From the NCBI RefSeq assembly GCF_028583425.1, contig NC_072801.1, positions 64,371,766 through 64,435,765 on the forward strand: 64,000 nucleotides of DNA, given 5' to 3'. The position numbers were made by a program, and so were the translations under genes. Of this stretch, positions 19,548-61,296 are shown piece by piece. This stretch comes from Eublepharis macularius. Taxonomy: Eukaryota; Chordata; Lepidosauria; Squamata; Eublepharidae. A model generated the notes under the pieces. It was not told where the DNA came from and searched no databases. It saw nothing but the letters and a program-made list of their open reading frames with translations. Every line of letters begins with the position of its first letter. Within the stretch, counting starts at the first letter, position 1.

Positions 19548-19656
19548 GGCCGTTCCCACACGGCTTACCTTCTTCCGCGATAACAGCGTCTTCTCGTGTG
19601 ATTTCGCGCGTGAAGAAGCTGTGTTCCAGAGGAAGGTAAACCGTGTGGAAACGGCC
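19548..19656. mobile_element. Palindromic GGCC element, copy P1
   Basis: 109 bp with ends GGCCGTTCCCACACGG and CCGTGTGGAAACGGCC, flanked by the exact 3-bp duplication CAA. The interior is roughly palindromic around TCGTGTGATTTCGCGCG. It is the shortest of seven related copies (others near 26110, 35044, 47397, 51043, 58872, 60838). Confidence 0.8.
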
Positions 19657-20594
19657 CAATTTGAAACTGTCAGGGACAATGTAAAATGAGCAAGTGCCAA
19701 GCCAAAGCCATTGTGATCGTGGTGACTGCTGACTAATGGCGATTTAAACCATGAGTGTGAAATGAGCCAAGATGGCTTCTCCACACCTGGGCTGTTGTCA
19801 CACGGGCTTCTATTTAGCATGAAAATGGCGTAATTTCCCGGCAAACACCCACCTTATTCCAACACTGATGCGATTTTCTCTCTTCTGCTTTGTGCTTGAT
19901 AGTCGAGATATTTTGCGCCTCAGTGTGAATGCCTCACATCGATGTTTTTCGCCTCGCCACGCCATAGGCCCACCCTTTTTTTCTCTCCTCAATCCCAGAA
20001 TCCATTTCTCCCGTGACTCCCCCCTTTTTTTGTAATAATGTCCTTATATCGCTATAACGACATCACACAATGAAAATTTTCTGCTGAAGAAAACAAGTAA
20101 AAATGACTGAATTGCCATTAGAGAAATTTTTATTTTAACCCAAAACCACACCTCGCTAAAAATGGCCGTGTTCAGTCATTTTCCGTTTTTTTTTTAACAT
20201 TACGATGTTATAGCGATATAATGCCTTTATTTTTTTTTGCACAGGAAAATTTTAAACTCCACAACCGTTCTATCCGACTTCCGCTTTCAGTTTTGTGTTA
20301 CCAAGAGGATCTTAGGTGTGGAAGACTGCAGCCTCATCCAGCTGACAACAACTTCAGTTGTGCACACGGATTTCAGATTATTCAGGAAACAGCAGTAGAT
20401 TAGGAAGCTAATGTTATTCTGTTATAGCGGAATTAAATGCCAAAAAAAATTTTTTTTAAAGGGGAGGAGCTGCTTCTGCGCCCATTAGAGAGAACGGAAC
20501 AGAGCACTTAGGTGTGGACAGCTGGGAGCGCGAAGAAACGCGAGGTGACCCAAAGAAACGTTACTGTGCCGATATCAGCGATGATGCTATATGC

Positions 20595-22120
20595 CAGGGG
20601 TGGCCACACTTGCTTAATGCAAGAGCCACACAGAATAAACCTGAGATGTTTGAGAGCCACAAGACATGATGCATTGAAGAGACTTCAGAGGAAGAGGCGG
20701 GTTTGGGGGAGTGCCCTGAAATGACATCACAGGAAGGGGTGGGGTTTTGGCACAGTATGCTGGGAGTGACATCATCAGAAGGGGTGGAGCTTGGGAAGGA
20801 CCACCACCTAACCTTTGACCTGGAAGTGACATCACAAAAAGTGATGTCATCCTTGCAAGGCACCACCTCTAAAGTATTCTGGCTAAAGACTCCAGGTATT
20901 TGTTTAGTTGGAATTGGCAACCCTAATGTTTTATTGAAAATAGGAAATACATGGAAAGAAAGAAGGAAGGAAAAAAGGAAAGGGAGGGAGGGAAAGACAC
21001 GGAAAGATGGAAAGGAAGAAAAAGACAGGCATGGAAAGAAGGAAGGAAAAGACAAAAAAGAAGATATGGAAAGAAGGAAGGATAAAAAAGGAAAGAAAGA
21101 AGGCATGGAAAGAAGGAAGGAAAGGCATAGAAAGATATGGAAAGAAGTAAAGAGGAAGGAAGAAGGGAAGGGAAAGAAGGAAAGAAATACACGAAAGGAA
21201 GGAAGGAAGACATGGAAAGATATGGAAAGATATTAAAAGAAGAGAAAGGAAGGGAAAGATTTTGAAAGGTATGAAAAGATATGGAAAAGAGGAAGGAAGG
21301 AACGAAGACATGGAAGGAAGGAAAGAAAGAAAGGAAGGAAGATATGGAAAGGGAAGGAAGGAAGATATGGAAAGGTATGGAAATATATGGAAGGAAGGAA
21401 GGAAAGAAGAGAAAGGAAGAAAGAGGAAGAAAAGAAAAAGAAAGATGGAAAGAAGAAAGAAATGTTAAGAAGGAAAGAGAAAGGAAGGAAGGAAGGAGGG
21501 AAGAAAGAAAAATCAAGGAAGGAAGGATCACAAAAACAGAGCCACACAATCTTAAAGCAAGCACATGTCCTCTGAAGCAAACACATTCCCTGCTCCTCCA
21601 TCTCAGCTGTCCTGCACACACTTATGGGTGTGCCAGTCCTCTCTGCAACTAACGAGGCTTCCACCCATGCAAAAGCCCCCCCCCCCCCTTGCACAGGCTG
21701 TGCTTCATGCCATGAGCGGCTCTCGGCAGCTGCCTTTCGGGAGTAAGCCAGAAAGCAGGAAGTCCTGGGCCACCTCTGCCTTGGCGCTTCCTCATCACGT
21801 CTTCACTCCTCTCTTTCCCCTTCCCCCCAACTGCCCTTCCCGGGTGCTCTGCAAGCGCGGGGCCGGCAAAACTCATTGCCTGCAGAGGAGTGCCCGGCAA
21901 GGCAAGGAGGGGTGGGCTGTCCTCAGCCCTGGCCCGCCCCTTCGTTGCTCCAGCGTTGGGAAAGGGGAAGCACGCTGGGTGCATAGATCGGGTGAGCGGC
22001 TGGTCGGCTCTGCCCCTTAAAAGAGCCTGGGGGTGGAGTGAACTTGCAAGCCTCCGGGAGCCGCCAAATAAGACTTGAAGAGCCGCATGCAGCTCGCGAG
22101 CCGCCATTTGGCCACCTCTG
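20595..22120. mobile_element. hAT-type transposon nested in the Q element
   Basis: Ends CAGGGGTGGCCAC and TTGGCCACCTCTG are inverted, and both sides carry the exact 8-bp duplication CTATATGC. It contains several TGACATCA-type motifs near 20720-20850, a long GGAA/GAAA array and a GAGCCGCATGCAGCTCGCGA end block. No transposase frame is recognisable. Confidence 0.9.
20940..21530. repeat. GGAA/GAAA purine array, about 590 bp
   Basis: An almost pure plus-strand purine tract of GGAA, GAAA and ATGGAAAGA units, on the minus strand CTTT/TTCC. The long frames on both strands (Lys/Glu-rich and Ser/Phe-rich) are artefacts. It sits inside the nested hAT. Confidence 0.95.
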
Positions 22121-22198
22121 CTATATGCTGTAAATTTAACGGAACAGATGCCCATGTGACGACGGCCCTTGTCTATGAATGTCATATTTACAGAAAAA

Positions 22199-22412
22199 TA
22201 TGAACACATGAAACTGGCGTCTACTGAGTCAGATAACTGGTCTATCGAGGTCAGTGTTGTCTAATCTAATTGGCAGCAGCTCTCCAGGGCCTCTGGTAAA
22301 AGTCTTTCATGTCACCTTCTACCTGACCCTTTTTTCACTGGAAATGTCAGGGACTGATCATGCGACCTTTGCATGCCAAGCAAATGCTCTAATACTGAGT
22401 CACAACTCCTCA
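22199..22412 (-). repeat. Sauria-type tRNA SINE
   Basis: On the minus strand: GACTCAGTATTAGAGCATTTG, CTTGGCATGCAAAGGTC, CCTGGAGAGCTGCTGCCA and finally CAGTTTCATGTGTTC. This is the same order as the copy at 50908-52008. Its body is related to squamate SINEs mobilised by BovB-type LINEs. Confidence 0.8.
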
Positions 22413-22879
22413 AAACAATTATAGTAAAAAGGGAAAATATCAAGTAGACACTTCAATCAATATATCTAATTCTCAAAATGGCAACATCTGTGGATACTTA
22501 AATTTGGAGACTGGGTCCATGGACAGACAAGGCAACTTTCTACAAACCTGAGAAAAGCCCCAGATGTGCAGAAAAATCTGAAATCTAAAATTTTAAAAAT
22601 GGGGGTTTAACTCACCCACGACACCGATAAAAGTAGCACTTGTAGCTTTAAGAAACAAATGTACTCAATGGCCATTACTAGGCAACCACAACAGTACTTC
22701 CAGCTTTCAAGCCTTGTTTTCTGCAGGAAAAGAGGGGGGCAGGATCAGGGCCCTTTTCAGGAAATAGTGTGGGGAAGGGTGTGTGTTTTTGTGCATCTCC
22801 ACAGAAAACTTGGAAAGCCCATACCAATTGTATTCAGCTTGACTGGAGCAAGACAACTATTTAAATAGTATGTTATAAT
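22413..22879. other. No gene recognised
   Basis: AT-rich DNA with no exon or named repeat seen. Confidence 0.35.
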
Positions 22880-23717
22880 AAAACAAAAGAGTCTTGTGAC
22901 ATTTTGAAAGCCAAACAATTTGTTGTCACACATTCTTTCATCGGCTAGAACCCCCTTTTGTCACATACATGAAGTGTCCTTCAGTTAGCAGATATATATG
23001 AATGGATGCTGGAGAAAAAAATAAAATGATGATGTCCAAAGGCCGTGAAATGTAAACTCAGGCATTTCTCTGCTAAGCTCAGATGTATCCAAGATAATCA
23101 CAATAACCATTCACAACAACAGTATTAGCAAAAACACACAACTTCCTGGCTGTGCTTAGCAGATTCAGTACCTATAACTGGTGAGAAAACGTTGGTATTA
23201 ATTAAATCTAAATGAATATAATCAAACTTCTTGATAAACTCTGTTAAGGAAGTCAGTTACTTCTGATAATGAGATAACCATTCATAGTCTCTATTCAGTC
23301 CCAGCTTGACTGAGTCAAATTTACATATGAATTCCAATTCAGCAGCTTCCCGCTGGATTTTGTTTCAAAAACAAAATCCAGCGGGAAGCTGCTGAATTGG
23401 AATTCATATGTAAATTTGACTCAGTCAAGCTGGGACTGAACAGAGACTACGAATGATTATCTCATTATCAGAAGTAACTAACTTCCTTAACAGAAGCAAA
23501 CTGATCTCCATATCAGAAGCTACTGTTTGCATCTACTCCGCCCTCCCCTCTCCACCTATATATCTGACCAGTTTCTTCTTGCCCTCCATGCATCTGACGA
23601 AGAGAACTGTGATTCTTGAAAGCTTCTGCTACAATAAAGTTGGTTAGTCTTAAAGGTGCTACTGGACTTTTTTTGATTTTGCTACTACAGACTAACACGG
23701 CTAACTCCTCTGCATTG
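22880..23717. mobile_element. Penelope-like element 3' end with inverted duplication
   Basis: 23370-23455 (plus) encodes IQREAAELEFICKFDSVKLG then LNRDYE and a stop, resembling the C-terminal tail after the GIY-YIG domain of PLEs. The same sequence lies inverted at 23240-23366, making arms of about 125 bp with almost no loop. The plus tail runs on to CTGACGAAGAGAACTGTGAT, TTGAAAGC, GGTTAGTCTTAAAGGTGCTA and CAGACTAACACGGCTAAC at 23717. 22883-22985 is another tail piece on the minus strand. Family assignment rests on the short coding end and the ribozyme-like motif. Confidence 0.6.
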
Positions 23718-26107: not shown

Positions 26108-26109
26108 CT

Positions 26110-26230
26110 ATGGCCATTTCCACATGACTTACCGGCCTCTGGAATGTTGCACAAAACACACGGAAGATAGTGTCTTCTCGCGCGAAATCGCACCAGGAAG
26201 ACGCGATGTTGCACAAAACTCAATTCTAGG
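26110..26230. mobile_element. Palindromic GGCC element, copy P2 (right arm truncated)
   Basis: Starts GGCCATTTCCACATGACTTA, then CACACGGAAGATAGTGTCTT and TCTCGCGCGA at the centre. The second arm returns only as far as GACGCGATGTTGCACAAAAC, so the outer right end is lost. Just to the right, 26240-26345 contains a short direct repeat (AGGTAGTATATAGGAGTACA twice). Confidence 0.65.
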
Positions 26231-26383
26231 ACTTACATTAAACAACATAAAGCACAGGTAGTATATAGGAGTACATATTTAAAGCAACTCCTATATACTA
26301 CCTATATACAGGTAGTATATAGGAGTACACATTTAAAGCAACAGATAATATGTAAGGCAACATAATGGTGAACTCTATGGTTT

Positions 26384-26600
26384 CTAACTCATTAGCAAAA
26401 CATCTGGGACCCCTTTCCTACAATACCACCACCCTCTTAGCTGAGAGAAAAAGCCCTTTTTGAATAATTCAGTTTTGCATTGTTTGCGGAAAGCCAGGAG
26501 CATGGGGGCTCTCCTGACCTCCTCAGGCAGGCCGTTCCACCGGGTAGGGGCCACCACAGAATAATTAAATTGAGTGATGTTTCTGGCACTGGCCAATTTT
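26384..26600 (-). mobile_element. LINE C-terminal fragment (CR1/L2-like)
   Basis: The minus strand encodes NYSVVAPTRWNGLPEEVRRA and LLAFRKQCKTELFKKGF. This pattern is typical of the end of CR1/L2-class LINE ORF2. The same peptide recurs, with a stop, at 42505 on the plus strand, so it is a repeat and not a host gene. Confidence 0.65.
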
Positions 26601-27119
26601 GTGTATGTATTTCTTTAAAGAAATAGTATACCCAGAGATAGGAAAAAGAAAGTGGAGCTAAAAGCGATGTGGTTAAAAGAAAGTCCAAGTCCAAGACCTG
26701 CAAGGTTATTTTTTCCTCTGTTCGTTCATCACTGCGTAGCTTTACGTGAATCTACGATTTCTGGCTCCATTCAGCCTACTACCTATTCTGCCTTTCCTTT
26801 GAAGATAAAGATCAGCCATTCATGTCTGGTGCCCATGGAAAGTGGGAGGAGCCGTACAACAAAGAGATTGTGATATCGAGGTCAGGATGGCACAAATTAG
26901 ACGAAGCAAGAGCCAGCAGAGATCTTGGGCATCTGAGTACCAAAGAATGCAGACCACGTCAGGTCTCTACTTTCCCTAGATGTAGGTCTGGTTCACTGCC
27001 CAAGTGAAGTGGTTGGTTGCAGGCCAGATCACCTACTTCCTACCCGCTGTTTTCAGGCAAACCAGCCTACCACATCTCAGACTAGTCCTTTAAATATTTT
27101 TTTAAAATCTCCCAGCTGG

Positions 27120-27690
27120 TCTAGTTCCAAATCCTCCAACGAACTGCCTCTCGAAAGCTCATACCTTGAAAATCCTGGTGCTCTTTAAGTTGCTACCAGA
27201 TTCAAATCTTGCCAGACTGATCACTTCTAGGATTTATTTATTTATTCATTTATGTCATTTATAGTTCACCTGTCTCACTGAGGCTCAAGGCGGATTACAT
27301 AGTGTGAGATTAGTACAATCGATATCAAGGTCATTTCCATAAACAATGTCATAGCGTAAATAAATACAAGTTTACAAAGACACAGCATTAGGAAAAGTCC
27401 AATAGAGTTGAAGAAATGCTGAAACAGAGCATCAGCAATTCTAGACCTGACATCAGACAACATATAACTGAGTCACTGTAATTCACACATGCATACCACT
27501 CCTGTTCAAAACCCAGAGCTTGCTTGTTTTACTTGTTTTACTTTTATTTGTTTTACTTTTATTTGTTTATTTGCTTGTTTTACTTTTCTCCCTAATGGGA
27601 ACCCTAAGCAGCTTGCATCATTATCCTCTCCTCCCTTTTATCCTAACAACAGCCCTGTGAGGTAGAGAGGCAATTTTGCATTGTGTCTCT
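27120..27690 (-). repeat. PLE tail, LINE 3' end and SINE tail fragments
   Basis: 27135-27215 has CTCGAAAGCTCATACCTTG and CTTTAAGTTGCTACCAGA, a PLE tail variant. 27235-27470 on the minus strand matches the 3' UTR of the LINE at 42770-42870 (CTTGAGCCTCAGTGAGACAG / TTGAGTCTCAGTGAGA). 27560-27690 resembles a SINE 3' portion (ACAGCCCTGTGAGGTAGA). Confidence 0.5.
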
Positions 27691-30168: not shown

Positions 30169-30290
30169 TTAGAGTAGATGAAACAGGAAGCTTGCAGTCT
30201 CTGAGGTGACTGATTTCAACCAGGTTGTTCGTGGTTCAGCAGCAGACTTGCATAGATTCAGTAAAATATCAGGCCCTTCTGTCCTAGGAC

Positions 30291-34898: not shown

Positions 34899-35265
34899 TG
34901 TTAAGTTGCAACAGACCCCAGTGACCTCAGTAAGGGGCTTTCAAGGCAAGTGAGGAGCAGAGGTGGCTTGCCAGTGTCTTCCTCTGCAGAGTCCTCCTTG
35001 CTGGTTGCCCATCCAAATACTGACCGAGATTTGATGAGATCTTGGCTGCTTCCACATCACTTACCTTTGCTTGGAATGACCCAGAACATCGCGCAAAAAA
35101 CACGGAAGATCGCGTTTTCTTGCACGAGAAAACGCGGAAGATCACGTTTTCTCGCGCGAGAAAACGCGATCTTCTGCAGTTTTTGCGCGATGTTCCGGGT
35201 CGTTCCGAGCAAAGGTAAGCCATGTGGAAATGGCCCAGGTTATACCATGCCAACTTCCCTCCATT
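34899..35265 (-). repeat. 5S-rRNA-derived SINE, interrupted
   Basis: GCCCATCCAAATACTGACC, GAGATTTGATGAGATCTTGG and, after the insertion, CAGGTTATACCATGCC follow the reverse complement of 5S rRNA (CCCATCCAAGTACTAACC, GAGATCAGACGAGATC, GGTGGTATGGCC). The body upstream (AGAGGTGGCTTGCCAGTGTC, CTCTGCAGAGTCCTCC) is the usual partner of squamate 5S SINEs. The palindromic element P3 splits it. Confidence 0.75.
35044..35235. mobile_element. Palindromic GGCC element, copy P3
   Basis: 192 bp, ends GGCTGCTTCCACATCACTTA and TAAGCCATGTGGAAATGGCC. Arms pair through TTGCTTGGAATGACCCAGAA versus TTGCTCGGAACGACCCGGAA and the shared CGCGCAAAAAACACGGAAGA. The centre TTTTCTCGCGCGAGAAAA is palindromic. The 3-bp flanks do not match here. 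Confidence 0.75.
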
Positions 35266-38737: not shown

Positions 38738-38977
38738 CAGGGCTTTTTTTCAGCTGGAACGTGGGGGAACGGAGTTCCAGAACCTCTTGAAAATGGTCAC
38801 ATGGCTGGTGGCCCCGCCCCCTGATCTTGACAGAGGGGAGTTTAGATTGCCCTCCGAGGGCAATCTAAACTCCCCTCTGTCTGGAGATCAGGGGGCGGGG
38901 CCACCAGCCATGTGACCATTTTCTCCAAGGGCAACCCACTGAGTTCCACCACCTCTTTTCTCAGAAAAAAAGCCCTG
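38738..38977. mobile_element. Foldback hAT transposon (CAGGGCTTTTTTTC), copy H1
   Basis: Ends CAGGGCTTTTTTTC and GAAAAAAAGCCCTG, with flanks GTGTTGAG and TTGTTGAG (7 of 8). The interior is a long palindrome: GGTCACATGGCTGGTGGCCC...GGGCAATCTAAACTCCCCTC pairs across the centre near 38845. Confidence 0.9.
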
Positions 38978-41934: not shown

Positions 41935-42197
41935 TTTCTGGGAAAAGAGGTGGTAGAACTCAGTGGGTTGCCCTCAGAGAAAAATGGTCACATGGCTGGT
42001 GGCCCTGCCCCCTGATCTCCAGACAGAGGGGAGCTTAGATTGCCTTCCACGCTGAGCAGTGCACTGAGCAGTGCAGAGCAGGGCAATCTAAACTCCCCTC
42101 TGTCTGGAGATCAGAGGGCGGGGCCACCAGCCATGCGACCATTTTCAAGAGGTTCCAGAACTCCGTTCCCCCGTGTTCCCCCTGAAAAAAAGCCCTG
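41935..42197. mobile_element. Foldback hAT transposon, copy H2
   Basis: Same ends as H1, with the exact 8-bp duplication AGTTTATC on both sides. The palindromic core (CTGATCTCCAGACAGAGGGG / CCCCTCTGTCTGGAGATCAG) has a small internal duplication of CACTGAGCAGTG-like sequence at the turn. Confidence 0.95.
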
Positions 42198-43879: not shown

Positions 43880-44212
43880 CAGGGCTTTTTTCAGCGGGGA
43901 ACGCGGTGGAATGGAGTTCCGGCACCTCTAAAAAATGGTCACATGGCTCTTGGCCCCACCCTCTGATCTCCAGACAGAGGGGAGTTTAGATTGCCCTCCG
44001 CACTGCCGAGCGGCACAGAGGACAATCTAAACTCCCCTCTGTCTGGAGATCAGGGGGCAGGGCCACCGGCCATGTGACCATTTTCACCGAGGGCAATTTA
44101 AACTTTAAAAAACTCCCCCCCCCCGTTCCAGCTGACCCAAAGTGATGTCATTGTGCGGTCTTGAGTTCCACCACTGAGTTCCACCACCTCTTTTCCCAGA
44201 AAAAAAGCCCTG
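43880..44212. mobile_element. Foldback hAT transposon, copy H3
   Basis: Ends CAGGGCTTTTTTC and GAAAAAAAGCCCTG with the exact 8-bp duplication GGTCTTGG. The palindrome turns at CGCACTGCCGAGCGGC near 44000. The right half carries an extra stretch of about 70 bp including GTGATGTCA. Confidence 0.95.
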
Positions 44213-44249
44213 GGTCTTGGTATACCCCCATGGAATGTTCTATATTCTA

Positions 44250-46237: not shown

Positions 46238-49200
46238 GTAAGAATCCACAGCTGCTCTCAAAGATTTCACACCAGTGTCCAGGGAAGTTGGCTATTAGCT
46301 TATTCTGCTCAAAGCCAGATGGCTTGCTGCTGTCGGCTGGTTGTTTGTTGCTGTGGGGCCAGAAACCTCAGGTCTCTTCCTGGGAGAACAGAAGAGTTCT
46401 CACTGAATTTTAGACGGAGGTTGCAGTTAATTGTATCTGTCCAAAGGAAACCCCCAAAGCCATGTAATACTTGAATTAGTTGTCATCTCACATAAATCCA
46501 GATAACAAAAGAAAAAGTTTTTTTAAAGCTTTTGTGAAGGAGATCTAGATATTTAAATATTCATATGTTTATATAAGAATGCAAGTTTCAAGAGAAATGT
46601 GAAATTTGTTAGAGAAAAAAGAAAGGAAGCCAAAATATCTACAGTCAGAATTGTGGGATAAGCAGGAGTTACTGGGACTAGCAAAGAGCTTCCCCTCTTA
46701 CTTGGGGAGGGGGCTGCTGCATTCATGAGTCTCTTATATAGCCATCTTTTTCTCTCTCCTTTCCAGAGTGGTGCTATGACAAACCCAGCTGTGGTAAGCA
46801 AAACATTCATTCCCTCAGTTTCACATGCGGCCTCAAAGAAACTTCCCAACGTAGGAAGCGTAGGCAGTTATCTCATTGGGCCGATTAGACCAACGGGGCA
46901 CAGAAAGGAAAGCAAGTTCCTTTAGGTGGCTTCCTAGGGAGAATTTTGATGACTCGGTCCACAAGTATCTCTGATCCTGCTAGAAGAGGGTGGTTGGTCT
47001 GGTGGCCCGGAGACTCTTTCAACCTAGCTGGCCTACCGACCCAAATGTAAGCACAAAGCTGAAGTTGAATTTTGATCCCTTGGTTGATTTGCGGTAGCAA
47101 GTTTTTTCCATTCCTGCTGTGGAATTCCCCCCCCCCCCAGCAAGGTGCCCTCATTTTCTTATCACCTGGTGTTATTATTGTCTTTAAGATGCTGCGCCAA
47201 CCTGTTTGCCTGAGCTTTTACAAGCCTCTATCATCAATTGCTTTTTATTGGTGGTTGCATACACTGAGTTTATCTATGGCTGAAATCGCACATCTTGTTG
47301 TCAAGTGCCCAAGGGTTGAAATCCAGTTGTAAATCAGTCTTCCAGCATAGCCAATAATTGATTTAGAAATGTAAAACAAGTACATTTTAGAATTGTGGCC
47401 GTTTTCGCACTACTAACCTGCTTCCGTAACATTGTGAAATGTCGCGCAAAAAACACGGAAGATAGGATCTTCCCACTATCTTACAAGAAGACGCTATCTT
47501 CCGTGTTTTTTGCGTGACGTTTTGCAACGTTACAGAAGCAGGTTAGTAATGTGAAAACGGCCTGTGTTTTTTTTTTCACGTCTACATTGATAAGAGAGGA
47601 GCTGAAAAGTTCTTTAAATTGATATGTATGTTGTTTTTAGAAAAGATTTTCAAAATTTATCTTTTAGTAGTTGTAACTGAAGTTTAAGCTGCCTTGGAGA
47701 CTTTTTACAGTAGAATGGTGGGACTTCGTTTTTTAAAAAAATACAGACATCAAGTTCAAATGTTCTGGCCTAGCTTGTGTAAGGAACAGAACTTTAAACT
47801 GCTCTATACCCCCCAAACCCTGGACTGCTCCAAATCATGTATCTGGACTTCAGCCTCAAAATATACATACCCCTGTTTGCCTCAGGTTCCTCTTTTGCTT
47901 ATCCATGAAATGGCTGCCATTTGAGGCCATAGGCTTATTAAGGAAAGGGCCGCAGGGGAAATGGTTGCTAGACAACCACCCATTCAGTACTTCCTCTTGG
48001 AAGCACTAGAAGATACTTGTGTGGTTGCTCAGCAACTTGAGCTACCCACAGGGCTTCCCTGTTGCAATTACTGGTTTCTGTGAAGAAACCTCAGGGATTA
48101 ATATTGCGGTGCTGGGCCTTGGGTCTTTTTGGAATGAGAAGAGCATGCCACTTCTATGTACAGCATCGAGATAATTATACAAGGACCCTTTGCTTGGCGA
48201 CACTAGCTGTCAACTTCAGTTCATGATAGCGGCAGCTGTTGGTGGTGGGCATATACAGTCACTGAGACGGCAATTTTCTCAGAAGAATTAATTTAAATGC
48301 TTAAAAGCATTATTTTGTGTATGTGGCGCCACATGACTTAGGTAGCCACCACTTCTGCTCCAATGTGACCTAATTGTGCGTCTCCCAAACAGAATCAAAA
48401 GAGGACAACTGTCAAATTTGCATTTGGATCCTTCCCTTTAATGCTGTTGTTGCCGCTCCTTCATTGGCTCTGCCCTTTTTGTCTCTGCTTTCCTAGGGCC
48501 TCACACATGGTATTCCCTCGGTCAGTGCAGTGGTGCCTATCAGTCTCCCATCAACATTGAAACCAGGAAAGCCCTGCCTGGAACCCATTTGGGTCCGCTG
48601 AATTTTATTGGTTATGAAAACCGTATGCTTCCGAAATCTCTGACCAACACAGGGCACTATGGTAAGAAGGGACTATGAGAGGCCGCAAGGTAATGTGGTA
48701 GAGGGCGCTGGTGTCAGAATTAGGACATTGGCAGCTGGGTCCAGGTGCCTTAATGACCGCCTGCCTGTGGTCACTTGCCAGAAAAAGGGGCTGCTCTCTG
48801 ATCCTTTTCAGGACCACCACTGCAGGTGGCAAGAGGGTGGTGTTGCAACTGCCAGCTTAACAAGGGTCATATGGCACAAGGAACCAGTGGGGCACCACCT
48901 CATCTTATCAGGCTTCTGAGTTTACTCCGGCTTCTCAGTCATAGCTTGAGTTCAAATGGAGCTGCTCTTGGACTGCCTGCCTACGTACCTCACTGCCGGC
49001 TCTTGTTTGAAGGCTTGTCTATCCTGCCTGGTTGGTATGTGTTTTCCTTCAGACCTCCAGCTTCCTATGTGCCCCCTCCCAGGCCAGCCTTGATACTAGA
49101 GTGATCAGAGGTAATGTAGAGAACAGGGACCTAAGATGGCAAACATACTACATAATAGTTCAGTTCTCCTTGGACAGATGACCATTCTGTGGTGGAGTGG

Positions 49201-52200
49201 TATACAAGTTGTGCTGTGAGGAGAGGAATCACATGACTGTCATGACTACAGTTGCCATGGTGGTAAGAGACCATGGTGGTAGGTTGAGTGTGCATGAGTG
49301 TCCTGGCCCTGCCCCTCACCTCCACATGAGTCGTTTGCATGATATGAACATGCAGAGGAAGTGCCTGCACATATTCCTCCCTCCCTGCGATCAGCGATGC
49401 TTCCTTCTGAACTTTGCTTATCAAAGAGACAGAGTGTGTGCTTCCCCTACATGTTCACACTCTGCAGACAACTTGATGATCACACAGAGGTGAGGGGTGA
49501 GGCCAGCCCCTCCTGCGCTCTCTCCCTCCCCACAAGGTGAGTCAGCACACCGAGGGGTTGTCTGAACAGGCCTTATCTGTACAGTGTACACTTGATTTTT
49601 CTGTATACATGCTTATGCCCAATACACAGAGCTGAATGTGTGATTTAAAATCCCATGTTTATTCAGGTACTGGTACTCATTTTCAATTGTAAAGGAAATT
49701 AGTGTTGGCTGTTTCTTGCAAATAGATGTATGCACATACGTCCAAGTCGTATGGTAACATTTGCTGTAGCATATGAACAGGGCTGCATCGCACACCCTAT
49801 GAGGTCCAGCTAGGCTTCCCAGTTGCCATCGGTGGCAGGGAATCTCCCAAAGGCTTACCCCATTGGCTGCCAATCACTGGCGATTGGAGGGAGGTGGCAA
49901 GGCCCCAGGAGATTGTCTGTCACTGGCAGGCAACCCGGGAAAGAATGCACTGGTTTACTCCCAGTAGGGTGTGACAACGTCATTTCCTGAAGTGATCTTG
50001 TCGCGCCAGCTGTGGGCATCCTTCTGCGCTTTGCTGGGACCGGTTTTAGCCCCAAACCGGCTGAATTTGCCCTGCGCAAAGCACAGGAGCCTGCCCATGG
50101 CTGGTGTGATGATGTTACTTCCCAGAAGTGACGTCATCATGCAAGCACCAGGAAAAGAAGCATGCACAAGGTTCGAGGTAAGTGTCAGGGTGTCCCCCTC
50201 CCTCACTGGAAGGATATAGGGTCCTGGCAACCTTAAGTCCAGCTCAATAAAAGAAGGAAGTGAAAGTCTGCTTAGGACTGGGGCCTTGAATCTGCCTTTG
50301 GTGACACCAGTTTCTGACAGTGGGGAGAGGGGTAAGGTTCCTTTCCCAATAGTATTCCTGATGGTTCCATAGAATTAATGCATGCAGTCCTCTATCAACC
50401 TCTTATGTCTGTGTAGTTCCTAGGTGAGTGGTGGGCGCCCTGGCTCCTACCTGGTTTGTCTTCTTTCGCTCATGTACGCACGCCCCCGGGCCTGCGCGAT
50501 GACATCACTTCCAGGAAGTGACGTCATCACACAGGCCGTGGCTGTACCCAGGAGCACTCCTGTGCTCCACGGGGGGGGGGTGGATATTGGCCTGGATCAG
50601 GCTCAAATCGGCTGAAATGGGCCACTGCAGAGCGTGGGAGCATTCCCATGCTCCGCAGTGGCCCGATCTGAGCTGATTTGCTTACTTGGCTGGCAGAAGC
50701 ATGCAGTGCCGCCTGGGAGCACGCCCCTAGGAGGCCCATGCCTCCCCCATCAGCCAGGTAAGTGGGAGCAGGGGATGGAGGGTGGGAGTGAGGGATCCCC
50801 CACCTCCAGTGGGGGACTGGCAACCCTAGTAGTTCCGCTGCTGGGTTTCATTTCTTAGCCATGAGTATGACACTATGATTATGGGACACAGAGTGAGGTG
50901 ACATAGGAGAGGGGCAATGGCTCAGAATAGAGCACTGGCTTGGCATGCAGAAGGGCCCAGGTCCAATTTCCACTTAAAAGGAATAGGTTGTAGGGCCTCT
51001 ACCTGAGACCCTGGAAAGCCACTGCCAATCTGAGAAGACAATGGCCGATTCCACATGGCTTACCTAAAGCCATGTGTAAGCCACATGGCTTACATGCGCT
51101 ACGTTGTGGATCATGCCGGGAAAAACGCCGGGAAAAACGCGAAATATTGCATTTTCTCGCACGAGTTTTGTGTGATGTCACGCAAAACTTGTGCGAGAAA
51201 ATGCGATATTTCGCATTTTTCCCGGCATGATCCGCAACGTAGCGCAATGTCCCGGCTTCAGGTAAGCCATGGCCGTCGTCACACGGGCTTTTATTTAGCG
51301 CTAAAATGGCGCTATTTCCCGGCAAACACCCACCTTATTCCAACACTGTAGCGATTTTCTCTTTTCTGCTTTGTGCTTGATAGTCGCGCTATTTTCTGCC
51401 TCAGTGTGAATGCCTCACATCGATGTATTTCGCCTCACAACGTCCTATGCCCTCCCTTCAATCCCAGAATCCATTTCTTCCTGCGACTCCCCTTTTTTTA
51501 TTTTATTATGTCCTTATAATGCCATAACGACATAACACAATGCAAACTTTCTGCTGAAGTAAAAATGACTCAATCGCCATGGCAGAGTCGTCAGCGATGG
51601 GGATCACCTCAGACAGGGAGTTTTCTGCCGGCAAAGGGCTATTTATATAATTTCAAAGTTGGTAAAACAAAAGGTTCGTGATGTTTTGCTCTAACGGAAT
51701 GTTTATATGCTGTTATTCCGTTATAGCGGAATTAAACGCCAGAAAAATAAAAAAAGGGGGGGAGGAGCTGCTTCTGCGCGGTTAGAGAGAACAGAACAGA
51801 GTGCTTCGGTGTGGACAGCTGGTGGCGCGAAGAGCCGTTAGGTGACCCAAAGAAACGTTACTGTGCCGATAGCAGGTAGGACGCTATATGCTGTAAATTT
51901 AATGGAAGAGATGTCCGTGTGACGACGGCCCATGTGGAATCGGCCAATATTTGATGAGCCGATGGTCTGATTCAGTGTAAGGCAGATTCATGTGTAAACT
52001 GTCTATTACATGCACAGGTCTCCATCTCTCTCATTTTTATCCTCCTGTTCCAAAAAAACCAATCTGTGTAGTCAAATTAATTGTAAATTAATTGCTGTGT
52101 AATCAAATTAATCTAAAATGCAGCTAAAGCTGTACTTCAATAAGACCTTGATTGTAAGGATGGTAAAACTTGTTGTATGTTCGCTGTTAACAACTTCAAG

Positions 52201-55200: not shown

Positions 55201-58200
55201 GACACATCCATTTTTATACAGAAGTATACTCTGATTTTTGTGGCCGTTTCGCCTAATGGCTTTTATTTGTTTCGGCTCACAAAGTAGATTTTTAGCTCAC
55301 AACACTGCAAAGCTTAGAGGGAACATTGCCCTGAGTGTGTGTATAAGTGAGAAATTTCAAATTGTTTGCGTCTCCATTCCACCCTGCCATCTTTCTCAGG
55401 TTCCCGGTTTGTTCCTACTAATAGACTTTACCGTGAAGTCCTGTTATGAAGATAATGCAAACAGCCCACCTATAGAGAAGGTTGGGATTCCCTCTCCCCA
55501 AAGTCCTGATCAGGAGTGAGCGTGCTTACTGCTGTTGAGAGCAGTTTAAGAGTCAGAGGGAGAGGAAACGGAGGAGCTGGAGAAACTGGCCTGCTCAAAC
55601 CTTGGAGGAGCAGGCCAGTTGAAAAAGCTGTTAGGCTTTTCACCTAATTTCTTTCTTTGTTCCTCGTGAGGTTGCCTGTGAGGGCATTCACGTGCTAATT
55701 ATGTCCTTTTGTTCTGCATGGCTGTAAAACCTTTGCAGTTTCAAGGGGAAAAAAACTTTGCAGTTTAAAACTCTTTACTTCTAGATTCAGCAACTTTTTT
55801 GCTTCTTAGATTCAACTATGGGCTTTTCTTTGGCCCTGAGGAATTTATTCAAGACTGGGCCCATAACCCTGTTAGGATTATATATATATATATATATTTA
55901 GTTTGGTTTAGTTTAGTAACTTAGCAGAGTAACATAGCAGAGCAATTTAGTCAGAAGCATTTAAACCTTTACAAACGTGCATTAATTAATCCTCAGACAA
56001 AATTCATAGAAAGATAGAACTTACAGTTTATTGTAGCAGATTTCTTCCATAGCAATATCTTCTGGTAATAAGAAGGGAAAGATCCTAATCTAAAGAGTTA
56101 CATTCCCTAGTCTATGCCACGGCCTGAAACTAGGAAGCGAGGCTAGAAGTGGGTCTGTGGACAAAAAGAAGGGCTCCATTAGGAGCATGGTGGCTTTACA
56201 TCATTTCTCTTGGGAGAGCATGAGGGAAGGTGTGAAATCTCCCAAGAGGCACAGAGGCAAGAGAGGAGGAGTCAGTAGGCGTTCCCAATTTAGACAAGAG
56301 AGTGGCAGATTGCTAGACTTATACATTACATTCAAAGAGACATGCAGCACCCCCCAGGGTCCAAAGGCAGGCTGAGTCGCCTATTCCAACAATCTGAGTT
56401 GGAGATAAAGTTCCTAATCAGTTCTTCACAGAGAGCAAGGGGATCCAAAAGATACATCAGTTCCAGCCCGTTTCCAGCTGCTCCTTTTTCAACTGCTCCA
56501 TTTTCTCATGCATTATAACACACCCTCCAGAAGACTGTGTTCAGACCCCACCCTGCAAATCAATCACCCATTCAGGAAAACATCACACAACAGAGCTCTT
56601 TGCAAGCCCATAACCAGAAATTATGTGGTACAGGGAACGAAGGGAATCACTGAAGAAGATGGATCTTGTATCTGAAGCGATTTAATTGTGCCAGATTTTG
56701 CTGCAGTTGGTCTGTATGAGATATATATTTAATGCTTCTGTTATTTATATATATATATTTATTATTATTTATTTTATTTATTATTTATATATATAAGGTA
56801 GCTGCCTTGCTAGCTACCTTACTGAGAATGCAGGATATAAATATTTTTAAGAATTAAAAAAATGAATTAAAATGAAATTGAAAAAATAAGGGCTTAGCCC
56901 TTGTCCTTTTATCCTATTGGCTTTGAGTGTAGCAACCTCGGACCACACCAATGGAAGAAAGAAGCAAGTTTATTTTTCTGAAATGACCAATTGACTAGAT
57001 ATGAATAGAGCCAGTTTGGTGTAGTGATTAAGAGCAGACTCAACAAAAGCCCTCGTTCCCACACTATTAACAATATCTCAGAAAGTTTACTACAATTAAA
57101 GTGCTCTGTGCTCAAAGTGCTTTCTATTAGCAAACATAACAAAAGTTAGTACTCAGTAATACACTTAATCAATCCTCAATACATCTTCCATTCCTTTAAA
57201 TCAATAGTATCGAAAATAATTTCATTCAAGCGTCTAAAGCATTCTGTTCATGTTTCCACCCATATTTCCGTTCCTCATATAATGAATGGGAGACCATGAA
57301 CACAGACAGTGGTTCAGCCGAATAATGACTCTTTCTTGAAGTTCTGTGCAGAGCCCAAAATATATACAGCTCAACAAACGGCTAGCTGGGGTTTGTTTCG
57401 CATGTAGTTGCTTCCTCAGGAGCAAAAGGAATTATTGAACCGTTGTCTCCAGTCATACAATTACAGGTACATTATCTGTGAATCGCTCCCTTCATATGTC
57501 GGATGCCATGACCACAATGGGGTCAATTAAGAGCGGCAGGACTCTAATCTGGAGAACCGGATTTGATTCCCCACTCCTCTGCTTGAAGCCAGCTGGGTGA
57601 CCTTGGGTCATTCACAACTCTCTAGAGCTCTCTCAGCCCCACTCACCTCACAGGGTGATTGTTGTGGCGACAATAACAACATACTTCGTAAACTGCTCTG
57701 AATGGGTGTTAAGTTGTCCCGAAAGTCGGTATATAAATGGAATGTTACTATTATTGTTAATATTGCCTCCCTGGCATCCCTTATATCTCCAGAAGTAAAA
57801 GAGCTGGGGTCTTTTTTAAAGGAAAGCTTAAAAATTCAGAGGGGCAGCCTGGAAGATCCCTGAGAGGGGCCAGACCCCTACATTATTCCTCTGGCTATGG
57901 CACTGTTGCCTTGAGGAAATACCAGCTGATCATCAGACTAGGAACCAGCAAACTGCTTAAAGCAGAATGTTCACTCAGCATTATCGTTTAGCCTTCCAAA
58001 CAGAGACTAGCCAACAGGTGAGTTTTATGGCACGGCAGGAAGGTAAATCGGGGTCTCCTAAAAGGAACTCAAGAACCCTCCTATTGTCTTACACCATCAT
58101 AACATAGGAATCTTGTTCTCCCTCTCCTCTCCCTCTCTCTCTTTCTTCCTTTTGTACCAGCTACACATAGTTCACACCAAAAACAACATGAGTTCTGAAG

Positions 58201-60254
58201 AAGCAAGAAAGGACCCCGAAGGATTTGCTGTCTTGGGATTCTTCTTACAGGTGGGAAACTTGGTGTCCGAAAGGTGTGTTTGAATGGTTGGAAAATCTGA
58301 ATGATTGTCAAAGGCCATAATATTACATGAGTCCCCCTCCAATGCCATGGTGGGTAATTTGGCTTTTATTCTAAAAAGTGTAGAGCAAGACATCTTGAGA
58401 GATCATTCTAAAGCATAATTCATGCCCTTTTCATTTGCTTTCCCATAGGGAGATAATGGTGCTTCAAAAATTGATGCATGGAAGACTCTGGCCGATCGGC
58501 TGGAATTAATTCCAGAGAAGGGTGAGCCTCCCCCTCCCAACCCCCCAAATGCTCTAGAATATGAGGCAGATTCCTACCAAGTCTTTTAACCATTTCTCCC
58601 ATCTCTGTTACCTTTCTCCAGGGGATTCTGTACTCCTGGCTGGAGAGTTCTCCATGGGAGGGTTACTGAGTAAAGCAGTTGTCAACAACTATTTTCGCTA
58701 CCGTGGCTCCCTCACCACTCCAGACTGCAACGAATCTGTGATCTGGACCGTGTTCCCTGAACCCATCTCGATAACTCACAAAGTGGTGAGTGCTTAACAT
58801 TGACCAAGTCGAGGAGGGGGCAGCTGGAGGGCAGAGGTCATTAAAGTCTCCGAAAGGAAGTTGGGAACCTTGGCCATTTCCACACGGCTCCCAGCTGCTC
58901 GTAACAAGTTGGAAGATCGCCCAAAAACCGCAGAAGATCACGTTTTCTCGCGTGAGATTTGCACAACCTCACGTGACGTCGCACAAATCTCGCACGAGAA
59001 AACGCGATCTTTCGCGTTTTTTGCGCGATCTTCCGGCTTGTTACGAGCAGCGGGGAGCCGTGTGGAAACGGCCCATGTGTGTCAGAACAGGGTGTGATCT
59101 AAAAGCAGAAACTTTTGAGATTTTTGGGAAGAACATTAGATCTGTGAAGACATGGACCACAGGATTGCTGCTGAAAACCAGAAGCCCCTCATCCAGATCC
59201 CAGTTCTTCCCTCTGTTATTAACTCAAGATTACAGCCCAGAGTTCCTTGCCACTGAACAAAGAATTGGAGCGTATCATCTCTGTTCAATTGTTGCCTAGA
59301 CAGTTCAGTGATGTTCTCCATCACCTAGGACTTGACCCAAAACAGTGTAGGTCCTCTTGGAGGGCAGAATCCCCTGAATGTGAGGGTGTATAATATGCTG
59401 TGGTCCAAAGTTTATTTTGGTATGCCGAGCTTATCTCCATAGCTGCAGTTTGATGCACAAACAGGAATTAAGAATTGGGAACGGGGAACCAACTTCAGCC
59501 TCCTGTACCGTTTGAGTGCTTCCCAGAATTCTGGGAGAGAGGAATCAGGGAACTTTGAGGAGTTTTGTACACCCAAGCCTGTCACAAATAATGCCGTTGT
59601 GTTAGTAGAAAAGAGCAAGTGTCCAGTAGCACCTATTAACAACATTTGTGGTAGGGTATGAGCTTTTGTGAGTCACAGGTTACTTCAGATCTGAAGAAGT
59701 GAGCTGTGACTCATGAAAGCTCATACCTTACCACAAATTTTGTTAGTCTTATAGGTGCAACTGGACTCTTGCTCTTTTCTACTACTACAGACAAGCTAAC
59801 ATGGCTACCCATCTTGCTCTACCTCCATGGAATGCCTTTGTGTGGCACTCTGGCCAGCGAGGGCCCCTCCTAGTGGTCAGAAAAGTTTCCCTACTGTTGG
59901 GAAGACTGAAATGAATCCTGGGGTCCTGGTATTACTGCTTTACTTTAGAGATTAGAAGAACACAGTCCTTTAGTTTACACAGGCTTTCTGGGCTTCTGTC
60001 CACAGCCACTTTTCCTTTCCTAATGGTATCTCCCCATCCCTCATTTCTTCCTTGTTTTCCAGGTGAAAAAATTCATTGACTCACTCTATTTTACCACTAA
60101 AGCAGAAGGCAGAAGGATGCAGGACAATTTCCGTCCAGTGCAGCCAATAAAGAAGCAAAAGGTCTTTTACTTCGAGGAATCAAAACACTCTAATGATCTG
60201 ACCTCATCTGGACGTTTTGGCAAGCAGGGGGGCACTGTGGCTAGCAATCACTAA
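46165..60254 (+). CDS. Alpha carbonic anhydrase, CA4/CA15 class, 8 coding exons, complete
   Basis: Catalyses CO2 + H2O to bicarbonate and a proton, outside the cell. Exons: 46165-46237, 46767-46793, 48497-48661, 52735-52880, 58161-58250, 58449-58521, 58622-58785 and 60063-60254. All introns are GT-AG and phases join to 309 codons. A hydrophobic signal peptide covers about residues 1-23. Zinc ligands are H114, H116 and H139 (CA2 H94, H96, H119). Also kept are the proton shuttle H87 (H64), E126, E137 and T223 (T199). Cysteines 27-33 and 44-227 match the two CA4 disulfides, and N146 and N228 are glycosylation sequons. The C-terminus (ESKHSNDLTSSGRFGKQGGT...) is polar with no GPI tail, so the product is probably secreted, unlike CA4 and CA15. 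A second enzyme of this class follows tail to tail. Confidence 0.93.
46767..46793 (+). CDS. Carbonic anhydrase exon 2 (27 bp)
   Basis: A micro-exon between CTCCTTTCCAG and GTAAGC encoding EWCYDKPSC. It carries the first two cysteines, as the small second exon of CA4-type genes does. Phase 1 at both ends. Confidence 0.9.
47397..47562. mobile_element. Palindromic GGCC element, copy P4 (CA intron 2)
   Basis: 166 bp, ends GGCCGTTTTCGCACTACTAA and TTAGTAATGTGAAAACGGCC, with the exact 3-bp duplication TGT. Arms match at about 88% by eye, including the copy-specific TAACCTGCTTCCGTAAC block. Confidence 0.85.
48497..48661 (+). CDS. Carbonic anhydrase exon 3
   Basis: 165 bp encoding GPHTWYSLGQCSGAYQSPIN through NTGHY. 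It includes the QSPINI signature and the proton-shuttle histidine (H87). Acceptor CTTTCCTAG, donor GTAAGA. Confidence 0.93.
49811..50235. mobile_element. hAT-type transposon (TAGGGTTGCCA ends), copy V3 (CA intron 3)
   Basis: Starts TAGGCTTCCCAGTTGCC and ends CTGGCAACCTTA. Flanks GGTCCAGC and AGTCCAGC agree at 7 of 8. It contains AAGTGACGTCATCAT. Confidence 0.75.
50421..50828. mobile_element. hAT-type transposon, copy V2 (CA intron 3)
   Basis: Ends TAGGTGAGTGG and CTGGCAACCCTA, with the exact 8-bp duplication GTAGTTCC. It contains GGAAGTGACGTCATCAC, GC-rich TCCCATGCTC blocks and a G10 run. Confidence 0.85.
51043..51945. mobile_element. Palindromic GGCC element, copy P5, interrupted by Q1
   Basis: Ends GGCCGATTCCACATGGCTTA and CATGTGGAATCGGCC, duplication AAT on both sides. 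Arms pair through GCGCTACGTTGTGGATCATG versus GCGCTACGTTGCGGATCATG and TTCTCGCACGAG. The last 15 bases lie after the Q1 insertion. Confidence 0.85.
51271..51930. mobile_element. Q-type transposon, intact copy Q1
   Basis: 660 bp with ends GGCCGTCGTCACACGGGC and GTCCGTGTGACGACGGCC, duplication CAT on both sides; removing it restores the P5 terminus. Collinear with 19790-22167. No protein is recognised. Confidence 0.85.
52735..52880 (+). CDS. Carbonic anhydrase exon 4
   Basis: 146 bp encoding AEVEMRSGAAIFGKGLPATY through RYDIE, with FHFHWG (zinc ligands H114 and H116) and GSEHAVDG. Acceptor TTTATTGCAG, donor GTAAGT, phase 0. Confidence 0.95.
53313..53771. mobile_element. hAT-type transposon, copy V1 (CA intron 4)
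   Basis: Ends TAGGGTTGCTGG and CTGGCAACCCTA, exact 8-bp duplication ATCCCACC. It contains GGAAGTGACGTCATCACG near 53675. Confidence 0.9.
54118..54262 (-). repeat. SINE 3' fragment
   Basis: CCCTGCCTTTCTCCCCAGTG, CTCACAACAACCCTG and GCCACTACACCACAGTGG are minus-strand tRNA-SINE parts with the central portion missing. Confidence 0.55.
54464..54647. mobile_element. Foldback hAT transposon, copy H4 (one arm reduced)
   Basis: Ends CAGGGCTTTTTTTC and GAAAAAAAGCCCTG. Only one strand of the central palindrome remains. Left flank GTTGTGTG and, after removing element G, right flank AGTGTGTG agree at 6 of 8. Confidence 0.85.
54651..55328. mobile_element. hAT-type transposon G (CAGTGTTCCC ends), contains a PLE tail
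   Basis: Ends CAGTGTTCCCGCTAATG and TAGAGGGAACATTG with the exact 8-bp duplication CCCTGAGT, whose left copy is made partly of the last bases of H4. GCTCACAG blocks recur near both ends. 55072-55190 inside carries a PLE tail (GACTCACAAAAGCTCATC, CTAGTCTTTAAGGTGCCA). Confidence 0.9.
55329..55869. other. CA intron 4, nothing recognised
   Basis: No exon or classified repeat is supported between the hAT G and the LTR-like segment. Confidence 0.35.
55870..56520 (-). repeat. Candidate solitary LTR (fossil)
   Basis: 651 bp with TGTTA...TAACA termini. On the minus strand it contains CTACAATAAACTG, a poly(A)-signal-like motif in the expected middle position. Flanks AACCC and CACCC agree at 4 of 5. 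No coding part is present and no second copy is in the window, so the class is unsure. Confidence 0.4.
56521..57007. other. CA intron 4, AT-rich with TA/TTA microsatellite
   Basis: TATA/TTAT repeats occupy about 56720-56810. No exon is supported. Confidence 0.4.
57038..57525 (-). mobile_element. Penelope-like insertion carrying a hammerhead fold
   Basis: 488 bp inserted into the SINE with a 9-11-bp duplication, a size seen with retroelements of variable target duplication such as PLEs. It encodes no recognisable protein. The family call rests on the hammerhead ribozyme at 57369-57423, since PLEs are known carriers of such motifs. Confidence 0.5.
57369..57423 (-). ncRNA. Hammerhead ribozyme-like fold
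   Basis: On the minus strand, 5' to 3': helix I GCTC (57423-57420), core CTGAGGA (57419-57413), one extra A, helix II GCA-ACTACA-TGC (57411-57400), GAAA (57399-57396), helix III CAAAC (57395-57391), an 11-nt loop, GTTTG (57379-57375), then TT and helix I GAGC (57372-57369). All three helices pair perfectly, although helices I and II are short. Cleavage would fall after the TT at 57373. The extra A after CTGANGA departs from the canonical core but recurs in the other PLE tails here. Activity is unproven. Confidence 0.6.
58161..58250 (+). CDS. Carbonic anhydrase exon 5
   Basis: 90 bp encoding LHIVHTKNNMSSEEARKDPE and GFAVLGFFLQ. It supplies the third zinc ligand H139. Acceptor TTTGTACCAG, donor GTGGGA. 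Confidence 0.95.
58449..58521 (+). CDS. Carbonic anhydrase exon 6
   Basis: 73 bp encoding GDNGASKIDAWKTLADRLEL and IPEK. The donor read as G|GTGAGC keeps phase 1 with the next exon. Confidence 0.9.
58622..58785 (+). CDS. Carbonic anhydrase exon 7
   Basis: 164 bp encoding GDSVLLAGEFSMGGLLSKAV then NYFRYRGSLTTPDCNESVIW. It holds the active-site threonine and the last disulfide cysteine. The donor is GTG|GTGAGT. The paralogue's exon at 63595-63758 has the same length and phase. Confidence 0.95.
58872..59073. mobile_element. Palindromic GGCC element, copy P6 (CA intron 7)
   Basis: 202 bp, ends GGCCATTTCCACACGGCTCC and GGGAGCCGTGTGGAAACGGCC-type. Arms share the copy-specific GCTGCTCGTAACAAG block. 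Flanking 3 bp are CTT and CAT. Confidence 0.85.
59597..59815. mobile_element. Inverted pair of PLE tails (CA intron 7)
   Basis: 59690-59815 (plus) reads ATCTGAAGAAGTGAGCTGTG, ACTCATGAAAGCTC, TTGTTAGTCTTATAGGTGC to ACATGGCTACCC. 59597-59688 is the same tail inverted (GTAGAAAAGAGCAAGTGTCC ... GGTATGAGCTTTTGTGAGTC). The turn is at AGAT near 59690, a different point from the inverted copy at 23369. Confidence 0.7.
60063..60254 (+). CDS. Carbonic anhydrase exon 8 (C-terminus)
   Basis: 192 bp including the stop TAA. It encodes VKKFIDSLYFTTKAEGRRMQ, DNFRPVQPIKKQK and a polar tail ending TVASNH. The acceptor is TTGTTTTCCAG. No hydrophobic GPI signal follows the conserved DNFRPVQ block. Confidence 0.9.
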   Translation: MKKFIDSLYFTTKAEGRRMQDNFRPVQPIKKQKVFYFEESKHSNDLTSSGRFGKQGGTVASNH

Positions 60255-60414
60255 CAGAGTCCCTCTGTCTGGATGATCCAACTTAAAACCAAAGTTCCCT
60301 CCCTCTCTCCCCCTTTCCAATATCAGTACTTTTCATACACTAAACTTCCATCAGCGGATAGTGTCCTTTCATCTTTTTTGGGTGCTAATAACTGGTATGA
60401 TCCAATGTTTAACA

Positions 60415-60420
60415 ATTAAA
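60415..60420 (+). terminator. Candidate poly(A) signal ATTAAA
   Basis: ATTAAA lies about 160 bp after the stop codon of the plus-strand carbonic anhydrase. No clear AATAAA is nearer. Motif only. Confidence 0.35.
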
Positions 60421-60833
60421 GTGCCGTTATCTCTCGGAAGACTTATATTTATTCAATCTGTAATCACATTCATTAGATACAAACTTGTGGTTTTTCCAGC
60501 CCAAGCGCAACCATATTGTGGTACTTTTCAGGAATCAAACTCAGAACAGGGAGGCATTTTGGAAAGCTGCATGCTTGTCGCTCTGCACACAGAAGTGGAG
60601 CAATTCCTGATCTCCACTCCCCGCAATTGAGGAAGACAGCTCCCTTGCTTTTGCTGTGCATGGGCTGAAACTACAAACATGCAAAAAGTTGCTTGCATTT
60701 AATCAAAATGAATTCTTGTTGTCTTTGCATGAAGAGTCGTCATCTTTCCTTCCCAGATTACCTCTTTTTACCATGGAGAAGAGAATGATCTCCTGCCTAG
60801 ACAGCAAATCAGAGGAGAATTCTGGGATAGACT

Positions 60834-61296
60834 CAGGGGCCATTTCCACATGGCTTACCTGTGCCTGTATCGTCCTGGTAGATCACACAAAAAACGCGGA
60901 AGATCGCGTTTTCTCGCACGAGATTTGCGCGATGTCACGCGACGTTGCGCAAATCTCACGTGAGGAAACGCGATCTTCCACGGTTTTTGCACGATCTACC
61001 GGGACATTACAGGCACAGGTAAGCCGTGTGGAAACGGCCAGGGCTTTTTTTCTGGGAAAAGGTGGTGGAACTCAGTGGGTTGCTCTCAGAGAAAATGGTC
61101 ACATGGCTGGTGGCCCCGCCCCCTGACCTTCAGACAGAGGGGAGTTGAGATTGCCCTCCACGCCGCTCAGCGGTGCGGAGGGCAATATAAAATCCCCTCT
61201 GTCTGGAGATCAGGGGGTGGGGCCACCAGCCATGTGACCATTTTCAAGAGGTTCTGGAACTCCATTCCACCATGTTTCTGCGGAAAAAAAGCCCTG
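60834..61296. mobile_element. Foldback hAT transposon, copy H5, interrupted by P7
   Basis: The exact 8-bp duplication GATAGACT flanks CAGG...GAAAAAAAGCCCTG. After the first four bases the element is split by P7 and resumes with AGGGCTTTTTTTCTGGG. The core palindrome is otherwise like H2. Confidence 0.9.
60838..61039. mobile_element. Palindromic GGCC element, copy P7
   Basis: 202 bp with ends GGCCATTTCCACATGGCTTA and TAAGCCGTGTGGAAACGGCC, duplication AGG on both sides. Copy-specific arm block: TGTGCCTGTATCGTCCTGGT versus TGTGCCTGTAATGTCCCGGT. Centre GTCACGCGACGT. Confidence 0.9.

Follow-up and report, generated by a model that had tools for sequence, protein, structure and literature searches.

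Introduction

The Angel elements of zebrafish are palindromic miniature inverted-repeat transposable elements (MITEs), short and non-coding, in which the inverted repeat takes up almost the entire element and for which a fold-back amplification step has been proposed. MITEs of the PIF/Harbinger type are defined by a 3-bp target-site duplication (TSD) and by ends that start with GG. In plant sex chromosomes, arm-to-arm gene conversion reportedly keeps the two large arms of palindromes alike. The survival of near-perfect palindromes under point mutation is an old question both for MITEs and for RNA hairpins. The present analysis concerns a 64-kb stretch of the Eublepharis macularius genome (contig C12, positions 64371766-64435765; the window), in which seven places carry a palindromic element interpreted here as a MITE, and extends to the whole assembly of 2.24 Gb in 72 contigs, to which all genome counts refer. 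Mutation by template switching, whereby quasi-palindromes are corrected, has been described (PMC8794818; PMC3820800). It resembles the changes reported below in that an imperfect inverted repeat has one of its arms overwritten after the model of the other, with compensatory changes as the outcome.

Quasi-palindrome correction is treated there in RNA genes and a yeast reporter, whereas the family in the window is a dispersed transposon in which some products seemingly became subfamily founders. The ends of this family differ from those of the Angel elements, and mirrored subfamily evolution, in which a change in one arm is accompanied by its counterpart in the other, is measured here. Like PIF/Harbinger MITEs the element has a 3-bp TSD and ends beginning GG, but its target looks like CNNNG and no transposase was found beside its ends in the six matches compared on contig C1. 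The difference from the plant sex-chromosome palindromes is one of scale, as the arms are ~100 bp and belong to a mobile element. Palindromic MITEs and quasi-palindrome correction are known; what is added here is the measurement of mirrored subfamilies in a dispersed transposon, of which no description in a MITE was found among the titles and abstracts listed in searches of open-licence literature. The pattern probably reflects rare copying of one arm onto the other, with amplification of some of the products into subfamilies.

A palindromic MITE family in the window

An earlier note on this stretch, made from its letters alone, had proposed that the seven places form one family of short palindromes. 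Their identity as copies of one palindromic, non-coding DNA transposon (MITE) is supported: the end motif was present with up to three mismatches at 13 window places compared to 0.19 expected, a count that includes related ends of two other elements, and the sequences at all seven are related to a single element with ends GGCCGTTTCCACACGG and arms of up to ~100 bp. The window copies, together with an element nested in one of them, are as follows.

19548..19656, no strand: short palindromic copy, 109 bp, with TSD CAA/CAA; arms pair only with an indel
26112..26192, + strand: left arm alone, with no right end found
35044..35235, no strand: palindromic copy, 192 bp, with block TTTGCTCGGAACGACCC; no TSD, the flanks being CTT/CAG
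47397..47562, no strand: palindromic copy, 166 bp, with TSD TGT/TGT
51043..51945, no strand: palindromic copy, right end interrupted by the nested element, with TSD AAT/AAT
51271..51930, no strand: nested non-palindromic element, 660 bp, with related 16-bp ends GGCCGTCGTCACACGG and TSD CAT/CAT
58872..59073, no strand: palindromic copy, 202 bp; flanks CTT/CAT differ
60838..61039, no strand: palindromic copy, 202 bp, with TSD AGG/AGG

The description of seven two-armed palindromes did not hold at 26112, and the copy at 19548 is a short member. The copy at 51043 is palindromic as described but extends as far as 51945, since its right end is interrupted by a second, nested element; another, interrupted copy of this 660-bp element lies at 19790-20594. 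A core motif attributed to all seven copies was detected at 7 window places compared to 0 expected, but exclusively within the copies at 35044, 58872 and 60838. The 3-bp flanks were identical at 19548, 47397, 51043, 51271 and 60838, and not at 35044 and 58872. That transcripts would fold into long hairpins was borne out in prediction for the copy at 60838, for which the modeled RNA fold was one long hairpin of -158.5 kcal/mol versus a shuffle mean of -58.8. No Rfam match at the gathering threshold fell within the MITE copies of the window, and an exact 22- or 21-base end word had no match in viral_contigs or genome_contigs. The window is locally rich in this MITE, with seven copies in 64 kb, whereas the adjoining 180 kb gave two clear copies and a weak match to a single arm. 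A cluster of small inverted AGGTAGTATATAGGAGT copies at 26250-26340 adjoins the broken copy at 26112.

Copy number, target duplication and relatives

The end 14-mer CCGTTTCCACACGG had 1,293 + 1,235 = 2,528 matches in the genome, compared to 9 + 8 = 17 for the reversed control. A sample of 82 copies was assembled from the first 100 exact ends listed, all on contig C1, and five window copies, and it is therefore biased towards copies in which one or both ends are intact. Seven candidates without a recognizable end pair were dropped (L017, L035, L073, L077, L078, L083 and L084), and L009 (C1:17281287-17284810), considered initially as one long element, is in fact two separate palindromic copies, both of which entered the sample. 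The sampled elements are 98-236 bp long, far below the size of a transposase gene, and in view of this length and the 2,528 end 14-mers the family is short, multi-copy and without coding capacity. Terminal inverted repeats were seen in window and sampled copies alike, and the TSD has a fixed length of 3 bp.

Identical 3-bp flanks were present in 53 of the 82 copies, where ~1.3 would be expected by chance. The base before the element was C in 53/82 and the base after it was G in 54/82, so that the target resembles CNNNG; the triplets CTG and CAG were the commonest, yet accounted for just 14/53. A 5-bp CNNNG duplication was the first interpretation and was abandoned after a test of the terminal bases. 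Among the 53 copies with a TSD, the last element base remained C in 19/19 whose left neighbor was not C, and in the reciprocal test on the other side the first element base remained G in 20/21. As the terminal C and G are kept when the neighbors differ, the duplication is 3 bp and not 5 bp.

Longer non-palindromic relatives with the same kind of 16-bp ends are the 660-bp window element and L086, which measures 1.23 kb. L086, the one relative in which frames were checked, has no reading frame of transposase length, and L077/L086 was set aside as a candidate, being a 1.23-kb relative without a long frame. In a genome-wide search for PIF/Harbinger-type transposases (DDE_Tnp_4, PF13359), 150 were scored among 1,334 candidates on many contigs. 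By eye, 0/6 matches on contig C1 below 71.4 Mb lay within 5 kb of a listed exact MITE end, and this C1 comparison gave no link between these transposases and the ends. Placement of the family in PIF/Harbinger would thus be tentative, whereas its placement among the MITEs is supported. Recent activity is suggested by the many DDE_Tnp_4 copies that keep open frames and have the same score.

A variable block marks subfamilies

The arms consist of conserved ends (positions 1-22), a variable block (23-45) and a fairly conserved inner part (46-72). In the four window copies whose arms can be aligned gap-free across 72 positions, identity in the block was 0.86 within copies versus 0.51 between copies, compared to 0.88 and 0.77 for the ends and 0.84 and 0.83 for the inner part. 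The true pairing of left and right arms was alone among the 24 possible in attaining the observed block identity; 2/24 pairings did so for the ends and 14/24 for the inner part. The strong within-copy excess is limited to the block, and the earlier observation of a block that differs between copies and is matched within each is confirmed. In single copies the arms differ by 10-20%, equally in the block and outside it.

The variable block marks subfamilies rather than single copies. When three window blocks were counted genome-wide with CpG sites left open in the patterns, the block at 47397 was found in 289 + 299 = 588 arms (control 0), that at 51043 in 38 + 34 = 72 arms, and the variant at 58872 in 5 + 4 = 9 arms belonging to five elements, four of which have it in both arms. 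Separately amplified subfamilies, one of two possibilities that the earlier note had raised, are thereby established. Three of the four other copies of the 58872 lineage (L105-L107) have a further C12G change in both arms, and mirrored variants occur at copy numbers of 1, 1 and ~5 copies, and in 72 and 588 arms.

For all 82 copies, the closest of 21 seed blocks was determined for every arm, with its partner ignored. The separately assigned left and right arms agreed in 76/76 scorable copies (L019, L051, L061, L081, L082 and the window copy at 19548 were omitted), in comparison with a mean of 6.4 and a maximum of 17 in 10,000 trials of random re-pairing. The consensus arms were near-matching in most subfamilies, among them K (99/101), J (95/98) and B (83/85). 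L165 and L166 seem to form an asymmetric sub-lineage, as just one of their arms has a small deletion common to both copies and a CpG-depleted haplotype that is similar in the two.

Mirrored and one-arm changes

Differences between subfamilies are mostly mirrored. Comparison of arm positions 1-46 among the 11 subfamilies with at least three sampled copies gave 571 mirrored differences versus 44 that were not, summed over 55 pairs that are mutually dependent and with 136 ambiguous cells skipped. The non-mirrored differences fall at CpG positions 4, 5, 15 and 39 (34 of the 44) and at one position of subfamily C (10). Neighboring subfamilies differ by steps of one or two mirrored bases (positions 31 and 44). 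An arm-copying step is the simplest account of this pattern, because arms that change independently would not yield almost solely mirrored subfamily differences.

Within subfamilies, 57 copies showed 201 one-arm and 11 mirrored deviations where 11.4 mirrored were expected under independence, and 2 sites were altered differently in the two arms. When the set was enlarged to 111 copies, CpG sites gave 418 one-arm and 52 mirrored deviations (46.9 expected) and other sites gave 201 and 19 (8.3 expected). At least one non-CpG deviation was common to both arms in 17/110 copies versus 229/3,660 cross-copy pairs, and at least two were shared in 2/110 copies (L022 and L013, the latter a sub-subfamily) versus 9/3,660 cross-copy pairs, several of which come from misaligned copies. 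The 47397 subfamily had 159 one-arm and 39 mirrored deviations with 23.8 expected (34 copies), a count that supersedes an early 14-copy subset (93, 20 and 12.4, respectively), and the 51043 subfamily had 115 and 11 with 9.2 expected (20 copies). The expected numbers derive from the same copies, mirrored ones included. L112 and L113 have identical flanks and represent one element; both were omitted, the similar L111 being kept; L118 was omitted as it has one recognizable arm.

Resident copies decay mostly arm by arm, with a modest mirrored excess. As changes within subfamilies strike the arms nearly independently, resident copies are not steadily homogenized. The second possibility raised previously, homogenization of arms inside each copy, is not supported in this steady form (11 mirrored versus 11.4 expected), whereas rare copying is favored by the 571 to 44 ratio and by two private variants described below.

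Two private mirrored variants

The copy L022 (C1:26317220-26317620) differs by C17T and C21G, each present in its two arms; C21G is a transversion, and CpG decay explains neither. With CpG sites open, the variant matched exactly 2 arms in the genome assembly, both its own. The inner parts of L022 are unmatched, with an identity of 0.79 over half the element. The second copy, L124 (C2:84528570-84528880), belongs to the 47397 subfamily and has arms that are identical over positions 5-70. A 35-mer of L124 with five CpG-decay states had exactly two genome matches, its own two arms, and with up to two mismatches the haplotype was found in four more arms in four other copies, no partner arm of which has it. 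L124 was alone among 37 subfamily copies in having identical 35-mers in both arms, and identity across copies was found in 4/2,664 arm pairs. L022 is the stronger of the two cases. Both private variants fit a rewriting event in one lineage, in which an arm becomes the complement of its partner. L022 was picked from the within-subfamily count and L122-L124 partly from like decay in both arms in the list of 47397 matches. As ~145 copies were inspected and the candidates were chosen for their mirrored look, no rate is derived beyond the two.

Proposed mechanism and alternatives

The subfamilies, their mostly mirrored differences, the near-independent decay and the two private variants were observed directly. 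That arm copying produced the mirrored states is inferred, and the molecular route, tract length, transposase and re-matched founders are proposed on the same footing. The MITE would be moved in trans by a putative transposase that produces 3-bp target duplications. New point changes would start in one arm; rarely, part or all of one arm may be copied onto the other, whereby the change becomes mirrored. The copying could proceed by hairpin or template-switch synthesis, by fold-back synthesis or by conversion inside the element. Template switching fits the arm changes, and intra-element conversion or whole-arm fold-back synthesis do so equally. Some re-matched copies might then transpose further and found subfamilies, which consequently would differ by mirrored blocks, whereas most copies would decay after insertion with each arm changing separately. 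Arm-to-arm copying thus seems to be rare and to matter mostly in founders. It is improbable that arm rewriting belongs to the cycle of transposition through a single-strand hairpin (fold-back) stage, with new active copies re-matched from one arm; new families of palindromic MITEs would then originate by mirrored jumps in their evolution.

Several observations weigh against rare arm copying. The seed blocks that underlie the complete agreement of arms were composed after both arms had been viewed, although the assignment itself used each arm alone. The consensus arms are less well matched in subfamily C, with 9 mismatches to 60 matches (4 copies), and in subfamily G, with 11 mismatches to 90 matches (3 copies). 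One-arm variants are shared at position 36 in subfamily A (4 copies) and at position 42 in subfamily C (4/4 copies), as scored with the orientation picked to favor arm agreement; these indicate that unmatched copies also transpose and that symmetry is no strict requirement. Small sub-subfamilies supply much of the non-CpG mirrored excess, with one change in 6 copies and another in 3. The two single-copy candidates tested genome-wide were both picked for looking mirrored. Two arms can come to share decay states with no copying between them, since 3 of the 4 identical cross-copy 35-mer pairs bear 6 deviations each. The 66-bp clean run of L124 was reached by 0/20,000 or 2/20,000 random placements in two runs with 106 positions, but by 1,221/20,000 placements once the poorly aligned centre was dropped (95 positions). 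As the run depends on this centre, its interpretation as a sharp copied tract was withdrawn, and the private haplotype stands. L123, L154, L162 and the window copy at 51043 also had very small run-length p values but are misaligned by indels and were unused. Finally, no autonomous parent with the same ends was found, only the 660-bp and 1.23-kb relatives.

A first alternative is that each subfamily was born whole from one fold-back event duplicating a half-element, the arms otherwise never being rewritten. Several subfamily masters do resemble near-perfect palindromes, and mirrored steps of one or two bases as at positions 31 and 44 are equally expected from whole-arm copying. However, each private mirrored variant would need a birth event without amplification, and later decay would have to explain why the inner parts of L022 (0.79) and L124 are unmatched, so that this account is unlikely.

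About as unlikely is an explanation by selection only, in which the block is a binding site for one transposase lineage and its two sides mutate separately without arm copying. The first 18 positions are invariant and the block is variable in 11 subfamilies, as would be expected of a recognition region. In contrast, the consensus arms match over ~100 bp in several subfamilies, beyond the usual size of a binding site, and mirrored changes do occur within the first 18 positions elsewhere (in the 47397 subfamily, and as C12G in L105-L107). Moreover, two mirrored variants are private to single copies, and the shared one-arm variants again imply that symmetry is not strictly needed. Selection on RNA structure is not proven by the mere presence of compensatory changes in a DNA palindrome.

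Miscorrection of one arm by the reads of the other during assembly or polishing, with old founder events alone explaining the subfamilies, is a very improbable source of both private variants: inverted repeats are prone to such errors and the L022 and L124 states were read from the assembly alone, but in this assembly the arms remain unmatched in most other sampled copies of like length, and an artefact cannot account for mirrored differences common to tens to hundreds of arms. Continual homogenization of every resident copy by hairpin-templated repair can scarcely hold, for although block identity is higher within than between copies and mirrored changes exceed expectation at non-CpG sites (19 versus 8.3) and in the 47397 subfamily (39 versus 23.8), mirrored deviations are at chance in the 57 copies (11 versus 11.4), the arms within a copy differ by 10-20% and no less in the block than elsewhere, and the nearly independent decay contradicts it already. 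With thousands of end motifs, many mirrored subfamilies and private cases, the family makes the rate and direction of arm copying measurable from sequence alone.

Other features of the window

A Ty3/gypsy-like long terminal repeat element with two adjoining long open frames occupies positions 3919-10116 on the - strand. The frame at 3919-8031 encodes reverse transcriptase, RNase H, integrase and chromodomain, and that at 8032-10116 has a weak DUF4939 match alone. The sole Rfam match in the window is a eukaryotic large-subunit rRNA fragment at 655-782 on the + strand (RF02543, 101 bits). An unrelated palindrome at 23240-23494 has 126-bp arms that are 97% complementary. Another palindromic repeat, with a core near GAAAATGGTCACATGGCTGGTGGCCCCGCCCCCTGA, is present in four copies (38789-38923, 41981-42145, 43932-44084 and 61091-61245), and by eye its arms are alike between copies.

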